Positions 20,304 through 44,072 of a stretch of 64,000 nt of DNA are shown piece by piece. Positions within the stretch are counted from its first letter, which is position 1, and every line of letters starts with the position of its first letter. The stretch covers positions 310,001 through 374,000 of the forward strand of contig NZ_CVPE01000005.1 of assembly GCF_001049895.1 (NCBI RefSeq). Reading direction: 5' to 3'. Both the position numbers and the translations under genes were made by a program. The stretch is from Rubeoparvulum massiliense. GTDB taxonomy: Bacteria; Bacillota; Bacilli; Rubeoparvulales; Rubeoparvulaceae. The notes below the pieces were generated by a model. The model had not been told where the DNA came from. It made no database searches and was given only the letters and a program-made list of their open reading frames with translations.

Positions 20304-20383
20304 GAAGCGTGTGTTGTAGGGTAAGAGCAGCGACACCGCAACCTCTGGTTGCAGGAGCGCGAAGACCCTACTACACACGCTTC
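20304..20383. repeat. Structured ~80-nt element, copy 1
   Basis: The outer 19-bp stem (GAAGCGTGTGTTGTAGGGT and its partner, one T-T mismatch) encloses a ~40-base core with its own GCAACC-TCT-GGTTGC hairpin. The core is almost identical to that of copy 2 at 22323-22404, although the outer stems differ in sequence. No T tract follows on either strand, which argues against a simple terminator. It lies ~23 bases after the lipoprotein SAM-enzyme gene. Confidence 0.75.
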
Positions 20384-21407: not shown

Positions 21408-21637
21408 CAACTTGTACCCCTTTCTCTTTTCTGTATGGTCTAGCAATTCAGTCCCATTCTAAACCAGCCATTGAATAAGGCAATGGAGAACACAGAAAAT
21501 GAGGGAAAAGTGCTCCCTCTCACACAATAAGTTTCAATCCTTATTCAAATATGTGACTTTTTTCACTAATTTCTACTTCTTTTTTACATGCCCTCCATTG
21601 TGAAGAAGAATTGGCTTTGAAGATTAGTATAGTCAAA

Positions 21638-21779
21638 AGAAAATAGACCACCCTTATGACCTAGAATAACTTAAGAATGGTCTATTTCACAAATGACTTG
21701 AGCCTGCCACTCTTTTATGAGGGCAACTGTTGTATCGACCATAGGTGTTAGCGCACCTACGGTCTTTTTTATTTATGCT
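21638..21779. pseudogene. Decayed copy of the type I toxin locus (3' part)
   Basis: The segment repeats the 3' region of the toxin locus at 21986-22126. It shares AAATAGACCACCCTTATGACC, the block GAGCCTGCCACTCTT, GAGGGC(A/G)ACTGTTGTA and a terminator hairpin GACCATAGGTG...CACCTACGGTC with T6. The toxin reading frame is reduced to its last codons (KRK-stop at 21645-21647). The terminator stem has one mismatch here but is perfect in the intact copy. Confidence 0.7.
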
Positions 21780-21916
21780 AAAATTAACAATACCATTTGC
21801 TACTATTTTTGTAAACACATTTATTGGATTGTATGGTATTATATATCTTATACAATAGTTAGGCTCCTTAAGGGTGGTCTGGCTCACTCCATTCCATATG
21901 GAAGGGGGTGAGGCTG

Positions 21917-21994
21917 ATGTCAGTATACCATGCATTATCACTAATGCTCACATTTGGTGTATTGATCATAATGCTACTAGATAAAAGGAAATAG
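21917..21994 (+). CDS. Small holin-like toxin peptide (type I toxin)
   Basis: A 25-residue open frame, MSVYHALSLMLTFGVLIIML then LDKRK, starts 6-12 bases after GGAAGGGGGTGAGG. One hydrophobic helix with a short charged C-terminus and the N-terminal pattern (M)SVYxALxLM matches the Firmicutes holin-like toxin family (Hol_Tox), whose members are type I toxins controlled by an antisense RNA. The 3' side carries the structured region expected for such a locus. It is too short for ordinary gene finders. Toxicity is inferred from the family. Confidence 0.72.
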   Translation: MSVYHALSLMLTFGVLIIMLLDKRK

Positions 21995-22118
21995 ACCACC
22001 CTTATGACCCACAAGTTATAGGGTGGTCTATTCCATAGACCTATTAGAGCCTGCCACTCTTATATGAGGGCGACTGTTGTACCGACCATAGGTGCGTCAA
22101 CACCTATGGTCTTTCTTA
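21986..22118 (-). ncRNA. Putative antisense antitoxin RNA overlapping the toxin 3' region
   Basis: By analogy with known type I loci, an antisense RNA should run on the minus strand across the toxin's 3' end. A stem AATAGACCACCC with GGGTGGTCTATT (21990-22032), followed on the minus strand by TTTCCTTTTAT, would be its terminator. The opposite terminator at 22084-22111 would end the toxin mRNA. No promoter was identified with certainty, so limits are approximate. Confidence 0.45.
22084..22118 (+). terminator. Toxin mRNA terminator
   Basis: A perfect 11-bp stem (GACCATAGGTG/CACCTATGGTC) with a 6-base loop is followed by TTTCTTATTTT on the plus strand. The decayed copy at 21737-21764 has the same hairpin with one mispair. 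Confidence 0.85.
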
Positions 22119-22322
22119 TTTTATGCTTTATTTAAGTATAACATAACATATTTATTTATAGAAGTAAATTTCATCCAATTATACAACATCACTTCAATTG
22201 AGACTCGTAGATTTACGAAATACAGGATGTACTACCGTCGACGTTGCAACAGAATGTTGCGTTCTTAGTCGACATTCCTTTATCCTTCCACTCACCTCAT
22301 ACTATTGTAAATCAGTTGATTT

Positions 22323-22404
22323 GAAGTTGGGGGGTGTGGGGTTAGAGCAGCGACACCGCAACCTCCGGTTGCAGGAGCGCGAAAACCCTACACCCCCCAA
22401 CTTC
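22323..22404. repeat. Structured ~80-nt element, copy 2
   Basis: The outer 21-bp stem begins GAAGTTGGGGGGTGTGGGG and pairs with only one G-T wobble. It encloses a core that differs from copy 1 in the hairpin loop (TCC instead of TCT) and at the core edges. The pieces AGAGCAGCGACACC and AGGAGCGCGAA flank the inner GCAACC/GGTTGC hairpin in both. It lies 9 bases after the M20 gene that ends the long transporter operon. No T tract follows on either strand. Confidence 0.75.
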
Positions 22405-40505: not shown

Positions 40506-40856
40506 TTACTTATTAATCCTTGAAGGGCCTCCTTCCCTGGTCGCTGCAGGTTCTTCTCCCACCATGGGCAGTACCGGCTTACCCCGCTTTTTCAAGCGCG
40601 TCCGTCTGCTCTCTCCCTTATACTTCTCCTTGGTTGCCTCCCCGCCACGGATATGTCGGATCGACTTGTGATACTCCAAAATCTCTTTAGCTTCCTTCGC
40701 CAGTTCAGGATTCACTTCAGGCAATCGTTCTGTTAGGTCTTTGTGTACGGTGCTTTTGGAAACTCCGAATTCTTTGGCGATGGCGCGAACCGTGCTCCTC
40801 GTCTCAACCAGATAGCGGCCTATTTTGGTGGTCCGCTCTTTGATGTAATCATGCAC
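40506..40856 (-). CDS. spoIIID: Sporulation transcription factor SpoIIID
   Basis: The 116-residue DNA-binding protein has a helix-turn-helix in KERTTKIGRYLVETRSTVRAIAKEFGVSKSTVHKDLTERLPEVNPELAKEAKEIL, followed by the basic HKSIRHIRGGEATKEKYK. B. subtilis SpoIIID (93 residues) ends near here; this one has ~25 extra residues (RRTRLKKRGKPVLPMVG...) of unknown meaning. It acts in the mother cell with sigma-E. AAAGGAG precedes the ATG. A sigma-E-like promoter can be seen 35-65 bases upstream. Confidence 0.95.
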   Translation of the reverse strand: MHDYIKERTTKIGRYLVETRSTVRAIAKEFGVSKSTVHKDLTERLPEVNPELAKEAKEILEYHKSIRHIRGGEATKEKYKGESRRTRLKKRGKPVLPMVGEEPAATREGGPSRINK

Positions 40857-40920: not shown

Positions 40921-40947
40921 GTTGGAGTCAAGCCTGACAAGCCAAAT

Positions 40948-40991
40948 AAAAAAACCCTTTCTGCCTATTCGACAAAAAGGGTCTTTTCCCA
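40948..40991. terminator. Terminator/direct repeat, left copy (after RloB)
   Basis: ACCCTTT pairs with AAAGGGT around ~15 bases; the minus strand continues into seven or more T residues and the plus strand into CTTTTCCC. It is almost identical to the segment at 43139-43181 (41 of 43 bases), so it is both a terminator for the RloB gene and one arm of the repeat that frames the RloA/RloB pair. Confidence 0.85.
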
Positions 40992-41024
40992 GGTTCATAT
41001 GTTACGTTCTAACATGCTATACTT

Positions 41025-41669
41025 TTATCTTCTTAGTCCAATAAGAAATTCGATCGCCTCATGTACCGTTGTAAATGTATGTGTTCCTTGATACAACCAA
41101 CGGTTGCGGGTATCGTTATCTTCACGAGTAGGTAATCCGTCGTCCACTAATGAGACAAGCGTCCATTTTCCATTTTCGATGGCGGTCTCGTAGTTTCTTG
41201 CAATCTCGCATGTGGATTTGAGGTCGCCTTTTTCATAAAGTGGTATGTGCCTTTTCACATTCTCTTTAATGCGAGCTTTATCCGCTGGTGAGACGATTGA
41301 AGGTCTAACACGTTCATAATGAAGTAACAGCCAGTACTCTACACATGCTGTTGTCATGAGTAACCGAACCTTAATCCCACGTTTATGAAGCCTGCGCAGT
41401 CTTTTGATAATCTGATAATTGCCATCCCAATGTTGAGCCTTCTCAATCTCAGTGTCGAAGAAAAACCAGATTTCATCTGTAACTCCAATATTATTTCGAT
41501 ACTCTGCGTTATTTTTGAACATCCGCTCTGCCTCAATAAACAATCCTGAATTAGGTGGAATTTTTATAACAGCAACGTCCTCAAACGCTGATTTAAGGAA
41601 TTTTGTATATGCCTGTTCAGTTTCTCCTTCCCAGAACACATAGATCAGAGGCTTGATCCTACGTGCCAC
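41025..41669 (-). CDS. RloB-family protein (AbiLii-like), predicted nuclease subunit
   Basis: This 214-residue protein has the RloB pattern: YVFWEGETEQAYTKFL (an early conserved Glu), an acidic pair in EIWFFFDTEIEKAQHW, and CVEYWLLLHYE. The fold is thought to be TOPRIM-related, with the acidic residues binding metal. The gene follows its ATPase partner with a 2-base gap. RloA/RloB pairs, like AbiLi/AbiLii, act as or are predicted to be abortive-infection systems against phage. Activity is inferred from the family. Confidence 0.82.
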   Translation of the reverse strand: MARRIKPLIYVFWEGETEQAYTKFLKSAFEDVAVIKIPPNSGLFIEAERMFKNNAEYRNNIGVTDEIWFFFDTEIEKAQHWDGNYQIIKRLRRLHKRGIKVRLLMTTACVEYWLLLHYERVRPSIVSPADKARIKENVKRHIPLYEKGDLKSTCEIARNYETAIENGKWTLVSLVDDGLPTREDNDTRNRWLYQGTHTFTTVHEAIEFLIGLRR

Positions 41670-41671
41670 TG

Positions 41672-42973
41672 CTACACCTCCTCTATTTCTAAGTTGGGCG
41701 TAGCGCCATACTTGCCGACTAAGTAACCCTTATGGATATTCTCATCTGGATGAGGAGAAAATTCAGTGATGTTATAAATTTCAGAAACTCCTGTTTTTCT
41801 GTTTTTATCTACGAAGTAAATCTGATCGCGACGCAGGACCTCCATATTTAGTAGCTCTGTGTTGTGTGTGGTAAAAACAATCTGAGCTCCGGTCTTATTG
41901 CTGTTTTTGCTTTGATAACGTGCCACGATATACTCTACAAGTAACGGATGCAATTCCTTTTCTAACTCATCGACAATCAAGGTACCTCCGTTAGACAGGG
42001 TTTTTTCGATGGCTGGCGCTAGCGCCATTAAATTTTTCGTACCATCTGATTCATCTGCAAGATCTAGAGGATAATACTTGACTTCTCCTGTCTTAGACAC
42101 ACCGTAATGTAGCGATGTAGCCTTTAGTTCACTGACTCTGAGTCTTGCTTCTGCTTCATTGGGGGTACTAGACAAGGCCTTCATCATATTTTGTAATGCA
42201 GCTTTAATATCTTCTGGGAGGTTTGCTGGTAAATCCTCATGTCTAGACAACTCTTTATTGCTAATCTCAAATCTCATATCTTGAATGCCGAGATCTGCCT
42301 TTTGTGCTGCAGAAACCATTGCCTTTAACATCCCTCGATCCTCTGCATGCTCAAGAATCTGATTCGGAATATCTGTATAATCTCGAGAGAAGACCACACA
42401 CTCACGAAACCATTTCATCGCTGCGATACAAAGTTGATAATTCATTGTGCAGGATACTGCAAAAAAGAGTTGATTTGAGGCCACTGCCTCGCTGATTAGC
42501 TCTTTTTTCTTTTTCTCTGTATCAGTTGGAAAGGAAAAATCCTGACCCTTTCGCTCAAAGATCGTTGCTCTCTTTCCCTTAGGGCTATGATATAGATATT
42601 CCGTTACAATCTTAGCCTTCGTCGCTGAAAAGCCATAGATGTACTTAATACCATCCTGCATATAGGTATATTCAAATGCTGTTGGTTCATTTTGTGAAAC
42701 ATCATCGAGAGAAAAGGGTTGCACAGGAATCGTTGCCTTCTCATGCTGTGTCCGCTGAGCATTACGTACAAACTGTACACCTAACCAAAAGGCTCGAATA
42801 AGGTTGCTCTTTCCGCCACCATTTTTTCCAAATATCGCAGCCGCTGGTAGCACTTTTTTTGACCCATAGGGAATTAAGCAATCCCTATATTCTTTAAGGC
42901 CTGCTGCAACCATAGATAAAACAGCTTCATCTCGGAATGAACGGAAATTGGATACCATAAATTTTATAAGCAT
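41672..42973 (-). CDS. RloA-type AAA ATPase (OLD/AAA15 class)
   Basis: The 433-residue SMC-like ATPase begins IKFMVSNFRSFRDEAVLSM. Walker A is AAAIFGKNGGGKSNLIRA, an inserted helical region (~95-310) follows, then the signature-like ADESDGTKNLMALAPA, Walker B TLIVDELEKELHPLLVEYI and the H-loop IVFTTHNTELL. This is the sensor/motor partner of RloB. AGAAGGGGTGATC precedes the ATG at 42973; an upstream extension to 43042 has no such site. With rloB it forms a two-gene island inserted between spoIIQ and spoIIID. Confidence 0.88.
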   Translation of the reverse strand: MLIKFMVSNFRSFRDEAVLSMVAAGLKEYRDCLIPYGSKKVLPAAAIFGKNGGGKSNLIRAFWLGVQFVRNAQRTQHEKATIPVQPFSLDDVSQNEPTAFEYTYMQDGIKYIYGFSATKAKIVTEYLYHSPKGKRATIFERKGQDFSFPTDTEKKKKELISEAVASNQLFFAVSCTMNYQLCIAAMKWFRECVVFSRDYTDIPNQILEHAEDRGMLKAMVSAAQKADLGIQDMRFEISNKELSRHEDLPANLPEDIKAALQNMMKALSSTPNEAEARLRVSELKATSLHYGVSKTGEVKYYPLDLADESDGTKNLMALAPAIEKTLSNGGTLIVDELEKELHPLLVEYIVARYQSKNSNKTGAQIVFTTHNTELLNMEVLRRDQIYFVDKNRKTGVSEIYNITEFSPHPDENIHKGYLVGKYGATPNLEIEEV

Positions 42974-43138
42974 AAGATCACCCCTTCTAATTCTATTATA
43001 TCCAATATTTAATAAATGCAACTTGTATTTTAGGAAAACCAATAAATAATTGCCATATTTATTAATATTTCATTCGGACCTTGGCGGCACTTTACTCCCG
43101 CCTATAAAGATAAGGATATTAATAAAGCCACAGAGATC

Positions 43139-43181
43139 AAAAAACCCTTTCTGCCATTTCGACAAAAAGGGTCTTTTCCCA
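43139..43181. terminator. Terminator/direct repeat, right copy (after spoIIQ)
   Basis: The same ACCCTTT/AAAGGGT hairpin as at 40948-40991, with two adjacent base differences in the loop. It follows the spoIIQ stop by ~28 bases on the minus strand and ends in TTTTTTGAT. It probably is the original spoIIQ terminator, the other copy being the duplicate, or vice versa. Confidence 0.85.
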
Positions 43182-43208: not shown

Positions 43209-44072
43209 TTATTCGGTCTGTTCCTTCTCATTATTCTGCTGATTCTCTGGTTCTAATTGAGACGCAGGTTCTTGTTCTGGAGTATCCTGATCTTGATCAC
43301 GCTGCTCATCCTGTTGCTTCTCTTCCTTATTCTCCTTCTTCCAGAACTTGCTGAGGATCTCCTCCGCATTGGCAAAGGTGTCGTCCTGAATCACCTCAAA
43401 ATGAAGATGATTCCCAAGCTCCTTCTCAAAGAGATTGCTGCCTGCTTGTCCCAGCAAGGCACCAGCTTGGATCTCATCCCCTTCTTTCACAAGAAGGTTC
43501 TGTAGACTCTGATAAACGGTCTTCAGCTGATCAGTATGCTGGATTTCTACCACATAGCCGGCCAGTACATCCTGCTCAGCCCGAACCACCTTACCAGCTT
43601 GTGCTGCGACCACATCAAAGGATTCGCCATCGGCGCGAGCCAGGTCAACACCATTATGGGGATAGTAGCCATTGGCATATTTCACGATATTGGGTGCTGC
43701 TACATTACCCTCCTGGGCTGCTGCTGGCTGTTCTTGACTCGCCACATAGAATCCCATGATCATCTGGACATCGACGCCTCGAGCAACGGGCCAGCCAAGC
43801 TGACTGCGATCAGCACTAACTGGAATGGCTTCACCATCTTCTAACCAAGGTTGTCCACCGGCTTCACCCTGCAGTTCAGAGTTTGGCTGCTCCTCTGTGG
43901 TGTTGTTCACATTCTGGACTATCATAATGGTAGCTAAGATAATTGCTGCAAGGCCTAAGTATAGGGCTGGGTAAAACCACTTTTTCTTCACATATCTTTG
44001 CCAACCTTGACGCCCCTCCTGTGAGGAAGTCTCTTGTTCATCCATTGGTTTCTTTTGATCTTCTTTGGACAT
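43209..44072 (-). CDS. spoIIQ: SpoIIQ-like M23 (LytM) sporulation protein
   Basis: The 287-residue protein has a charged N-terminus, one membrane helix (~32-52) and a LytM domain (~110-240), followed by a Gln/Glu/Asp-rich tail (~245-287). SpoIIQ lies in the forespore membrane and pairs with SpoIIIAH across the intermembrane space during engulfment. The metal site looks complete: YPHNGVDLA gives HxxxD and NHLHFEV gives HxH. The B. subtilis protein lacks one ligand, so this version may be a working endopeptidase, as in clostridia. Neighbouring spoIID and spoIIID support the identification. Confidence 0.9.
   Translation of the reverse strand: MSKEDQKKPMDEQETSSQEGRQGWQRYVKKKWFYPALYLGLAAIILATIMIVQNVNNTTEEQPNSELQGEAGGQPWLEDGEAIPVSADRSQLGWPVARGVDVQMIMGFYVASQEQPAAAQEGNVAAPNIVKYANGYYPHNGVDLARADGESFDVVAAQAGKVVRAEQDVLAGYVVEIQHTDQLKTVYQSLQNLLVKEGDEIQAGALLGQAGSNLFEKELGNHLHFEVIQDDTFANAEEILSKFWKKENKEEKQQDEQRDQDQDTPEQEPASQLEPENQQNNEKEQTE

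Follow-up and report, generated by a model that had tools for sequence, protein, structure and literature searches.

The locus studied here lies in the window, by which we mean the whole 64-kb stretch of DNA that was analysed, and its genes are all read from the (-) strand in the order spoIID, spoIIQ, terminator, rloA, rloB, terminator, spoIIID and mbl. The spoIIQ gene (43209..44072) is an M23 peptidase-family sporulation gene (PF01551) that in relatives is syntenic with spoIID, spoIIID and mbl, and spoIIID (40506..40856; PF12116, E 1e-39) is intact. A sequence-only reading of this DNA had described an ATPase gene and an RloB gene as the only genes between two repeats, with no integrase or transposase inside, and spoIIID and spoIIQ, normally neighbours, as the flanks. 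Our ORF and domain searches agreed on all of these points, finding no gene other than rloA and rloB between the repeats.

The first gene of the pair, rloA (41672..42976, with an ORF start that may lie upstream at 43042), encodes an AbiLi-like AAA_21 ATPase (PF13304, E 1.3e-31; PADLOC AbiLi, E 6.7e-88) in which a Walker A motif with K56 is present. The second, rloB (41025..41669), lies on the same strand at a distance of 2 bp and encodes an AbiLii-like protein of the RloB family, the presumed effector (PF13707, E 1.2e-14, 55.3 bits for a cut-off of 31.5; PADLOC AbiLii, E 1.5e-16), so that the two genes have the AbiL/RloAB architecture. The spacer between spoIIQ's terminator and rloA (42977..43135) contains the presumed rloA promoter region; the ~87 bp next to RloA resemble those of other RloAB loci, and this homology does not reach the first ~70 bp of the spacer. 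In an alignment, RloB showed invariant E14-G15..E18 and D65..D72, acidic residues whose order would suit a Toprim-like site, and these are compatible with the published relationship of RloB to AbiLii and OLD_TOPRIM domains (PMC10440598). The predicted structure of RloB (pLDDT 94) had no match among PDB folds at E < 1e-3. The profile of RloA matched solved PtuA ATPases of retron and Septu systems at E 2e-7 to 1e-5, and PADLOC also matched it to AriA (E 2.6e-31). By analogy with AbiL and PARIS (PMC12409363), infection would be sensed by the RloA ATPase, which would then set free or activate the RloB effector. As in AbiL of Lactococcus (AbiLi and AbiLii), an AAA_21 ATPase with Walker motifs is directly followed by an RloB-family gene, and by sequence the pair is AbiL-type; it differs from AbiL in being chromosomal, between spoIIQ and spoIIID, and framed by duplicated terminators. 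PARIS (AriA/AriB) and Septu/retron PtuA also combine an ATPase with a small effector, but the partner in the window is RloB and not AriB or PtuB.

The pair is framed by a terminator repeat on the (-) strand. Copy 1 (43136..43181), presumably the original spoIIQ terminator, lies 28 bp past the spoIIQ stop; copy 2 (40946..40991), which was called as a terminator, lies 33 bp past the RloB stop and 90 bp before spoIIID. The copies are 46 nt long and identical at 43 of 46 positions. We found again the match first noticed from sequence alone, 41 of 43 identical positions between 40949-40991 and 43139-43181, 2,190 nt from start to start, and both mismatches of this core are loop positions of the hairpin (TA vs AT). 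Both segments had also been taken for hairpin terminators, and as gene-strand RNA they do form stable hairpins with a T-tract (-21.8 kcal/mol for copy 1, -23.8 kcal/mol for copy 2). With up to 3 mismatches allowed, the 46-nt repeat was found exactly twice in the window (0 in 100 shuffles) and exactly twice in the whole 2.84-Mb genome, and the hairpin repeat was absent from the 150 same-class genomes searched; it is thus not a common genome-wide terminator, a case that the earlier reading had raised against itself. Six families of direct repeats of at least 30 nt within 10 kb are present in the window, and the terminator repeat is the only one with a gene pair inside it and, outside it, genes that would otherwise be neighbours. 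An assembly artefact is unlikely because the copies differ in sequence and a single 556-kb contig contains both.

The empty site was inferred from distant relatives, those compared being of the same class only, in which the spoIIQ-spoIIID interval is usually ~130-330 bp with at most one terminator found. Removing the insert and one repeat copy from the window leaves ~160 bp, inside the range of these relatives. A systematic test found edge repeats in 0 of 35 short cargo-free intervals, and relatives that carry two hairpin copies without RloAB, the other observation that had been named as adverse to an insertion, did not appear among them. One interval (L012) with a 49-nt edge repeat contained no convincing cargo gene and was set aside as a local repeat. 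Edge repeats were also missing from eight other intervals of more than 450 bp; therefore, the site may tolerate insertions by several routes. In G753 (L140:2992-4772), a DUF488/DuOB gene set matching the candidate defence system PDC-M45 occupies the spoIIQ-spoIIID interval with no flanking repeats.

We also compared the pair with its homologues, the best of which are in Clostridia. In the closest (L038, L039 and L040), which belong to three further lineages, RloA(B) lies between spoIID/spoIIQ and spoIIID-mbl, at the same site and without repeats, and in L037 it lies elsewhere. RloA of these three loci is 78-86% identical to that of the window at the amino acid level, compared with 56-58% for mbl, 53-59% for SpoIIID and 34-37% for SpoIID; among the three, RloA is 80-89% identical vs 59-67% for mbl. 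Identity at fourfold sites was 0.41-0.50 for RloA vs 0.24-0.26 expected, and near expectation for mbl among Clostridia (0.22-0.31 vs 0.26-0.30). As these values for RloA are far above those of the flanking genes, RloA has moved horizontally and yet occupies one site, and vertical inheritance of RloAB at the site is ruled out. The GC3 of RloA and RloB (0.37-0.38 vs 0.45-0.54 for mbl, spoIIQ and spoIID) is consistent with acquisition. No match to RloB was found in phages and plasmids, and the RloA homologues in viral contigs were only 55% and 27% identical.

DNA homology among the RloAB loci starts ~87 bp ahead of RloA and ends at the RloB stop; both terminators lie outside it. This rules out that the terminator travelled with RloAB; therefore, the terminator is local host sequence that was duplicated. 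Flanking repeats are not a constant feature of RloAB either: among ~30 RloA loci tested, only L049 was clearly above the null, and it represents a separate gene-start duplication. In this locus, from a pig-gut Clostridia genome (L049:4627-8577), RloAB is flanked by direct repeats of 300 nt (83%), and upstream there is an apparent serine recombinase C-terminus.

The spoIIQ-spoIIID interval of other genomes contains a second type of cargo, an AAA_14/DUF4143 ATPase that corresponds to the PADLOC candidate defence system PDC-S01. It was found in or adjoining the interval in about 10 of the 12 genomes that have a copy of at least 84% identity, and it occurs together with RloAB in G752, G401 and G594; in L037 an AAA_14 tail follows RloB. 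Results showed that the duplications around this cargo are graded. Two are short: a 39-nt terminator repeat (95%) surrounds AAA_14 and an RloA scrap in G594 (L144), and a 33-nt hairpin repeat (97%) surrounds AAA_14 in G660 (L132), placed 17 bp after the stop of the cargo gene with 106 bp left to spoIIID, a geometry that closely matches the 33 and 90 bp of the window. Three are long and consist of duplicated intergenic DNA and the start of spoIIID, with an intact spoIIID to the right: 255 nt (98%) in G631 (L143) and ~240 nt in G751 (L131), in both of which the left copy ends in spoIIID codon ~38, and 183 nt (95%) in G566 (L148), in which it ends in codon ~16. Two tandem left relics of intergenic DNA and spoIIID start precede AAA_14 in G566 (L148:506-1297), which suggests repeated rounds of the same event. 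Other cargo between the same repeats had been put forward as something to look for in other genomes; other cargo is indeed framed by duplicated spoIIQ-side hairpins, but the hairpin sequences of the window, G594 and G660 are mutually unrelated. None of the terminator or hairpin relics that frame AAA_14 elsewhere holds an intact RloAB pair, and one has the RloA scrap.

A possible source of these duplications was found in G752, in which spoIIID is split at codon ~38 (L125:6069-6182 and L129:10137-11874 (-)). The left end of the inserted element carries AAA_14 and RloAB, the latter decayed, together with what looks like a transposase remnant, and the right end carries a 533-aa serine recombinase (PF00239, PF07508, PF13408); the two ends lie on separate contigs, with a contig gap between them, and the element is possibly a new skin-like element. 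G631 and G751 share its left junction, ATACCGTGTTAAGAATTGGTGTCGG; in both, the left copies run to spoIIID codon ~38 and then into sequence equal to the left end of the G752 element. In G594, the element's left-end hairpin lies within ~25 nt after terminator copy 1 and the spoIIID fragment is gone; therefore, the terminator-only repeat of this genome looks like an eroded long form. Halves of spoIIID beside serine recombinases were also found in Mordavella massiliensis (G407; L135:2173-3877 and L136:4170-4283 (-)) and in Anaerocolumna sp. (G409; L133:5683-5799 and L134:2487-2654), where the split gene is a second copy of spoIIID, so that spoIIID is split at codons ~37-40 in three genomes and is the putative attachment gene of the carrier. 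A survey of 245 further genomes added candidate split genes, 15 of 170 positives giving two weak partial matches, as a split gene would give.

Considering these relatives, we lean, with slightly better than even confidence, towards RloAB of the window being the stranded cargo of a serine-recombinase element that targets spoIIID, and the repeat being the remnant of a duplication that restored spoIIID. The horizontally acquired AbiL-type system, with its ATPase sensor and RloB effector, would probably have arrived as cargo of an element whose large serine recombinase integrates, in a skin-like manner, into the conserved helix-turn-helix codons of spoIIID. A locus with the element could then have recombined with one that lacked it, which would have placed a second unit of spoIIQ terminator, intergenic DNA and spoIIID downstream of the cargo, giving a continuous spoIIID that needs no excision and leaving the defence genes behind. 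Later deletion of the recombinase and of the left spoIIID fragment would have made the duplicated terminator the sole repeat remnant in the window, where copy 2 should now terminate RloAB transcription and shield spoIIID, and copy 1 should still serve spoIIQ. G752 would thus represent the start state, G631, G751 and G566 intermediates, and G594, G660 and the window end states. The window is placed in this series by its anatomy and cargo, without remaining element sequence, and we infer its passage through these steps, the mode of the duplication and the defence function. Against a carrier element we count that a recombinase, a spoIIID fragment and a recognisable element end are all missing from the window interval, in which the spacer to the left of RloAB shows no resemblance to intergenic or spoIIID DNA (p 0.3-0.4), that the terminator-framed relics of other genomes hold AAA_14 in place of an intact RloAB pair, that the G752 element is divided between two contigs, that L038-L040 lack repeats and that RloAB of L037 lies elsewhere.

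The same absence of any element trace favours a simpler account, close to the sequence-only reading, in which no spoIIID element was involved: illegitimate recombination or template switching at the hairpin of the spoIIQ terminator would have brought RloAB straight into the interval and duplicated the hairpin. This takes the fewest steps for the window, hairpins are plausible recombination points, and other cargo reaches the interval free of repeats. However, it leaves unexplained that RloAB and AAA_14 reach the same interval in several lineages, and that relics there carry spoIIID fragments and element ends; we regard it as possible but rather unlikely. Of the earlier proposal that the pair entered at or with the spoIIQ terminator, the part that stands is that the insertion duplicated the terminator, considering the lack of repeats in the 35 empty intervals, the rarity of the hairpin and the parallels in G594 and G660. 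The terminator itself was probably not the target, as G631, G751, G566 and G752 point to spoIIID, and the repeat is probably what is left of a longer duplication.

Gene ends and terminators are used by integrative islands, and the length of the 43-bp repeats fits att cores, so that they could be read as attL and attR of a small island whose tyrosine integrase was lost or acts in trans. We consider this improbable: the unrelated hairpins of the window, G594 and G660 therefore offer no shared core, the window interval holds no integrase or remnant of one, and the repeats of G631, G751 and G566 are 183-255 nt long and run into spoIIID. Still harder to credit is a separate origin of copy 2, as a terminator that came to resemble copy 1 by gene conversion or by chance and does not mark an insertion, because, useful as a terminator would be after RloB and alike as terminators are in general form, the 41/43 identity includes sequence upstream of the stem, the genome has only two copies, and such pairs are missing from the 35 empty intervals and have parallels in other genomes. 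A classical transposon does not fit, given the lack of suitable inverted repeats in 39-45 kb of the window, repeats of 33-255 nt and no transposase in the interval.

Intervening elements of sporulation genes have been described for sigK (skin, PMC5025042), gerE (gin, PMC5595907) and yabG (yin, PMC10747680). G752, G407 and G409 resemble them in having a large serine recombinase beside a split mother-cell sporulation gene, and the window differs from them in its intact spoIIID and the lack of a recombinase. The proposed skin-like site in spoIIID, which encodes a mother-cell transcription factor, was not found as a target of intervening elements in the open-access papers searched. The site also resembles core-gene defence hotspots (for example PMC10250203), as AbiL, PDC-S01 and PDC-M45 occupy one interval in different genomes; compared with such hotspots, it differs in that the sporulation gene next to it contains a putative attachment site, and in that its relics carry graded duplications of host DNA.

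From a small number of independent events at the site, we give about an even chance to a more general proposal, namely that spoIIID is a recurrent serine-recombinase attachment site in Bacillota, like sigK for skin. Elements using it would carry defence genes across classes, and their decay by unequal recombination would leave these genes between duplicated host sequence, either just the terminator or a stretch of intergenic DNA that reaches spoIIID codon 38, as fixed host genes beside an intact spoIIID. Since the carrier interrupts a regulator of sporulation, its loss would be favoured. If true, this would explain how anti-phage genes come to stand alone in core-gene intervals without mobility genes: the carrier targets conserved coding sequence, and the cargo stays with a readable scar.

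Elsewhere in the window, tandem repeats at 21630-22121 overlap an Rfam match to BsrG, a type I toxin-antitoxin (21851-22108). A 57-nt hairpin-bearing repeat (93%), located in a longer palindrome, has its two copies 2,020 bp apart at 20315-20371 and 22335-22391, and a match to Bacillaceae-1 RNA lies near it at 22219-22284 (-).
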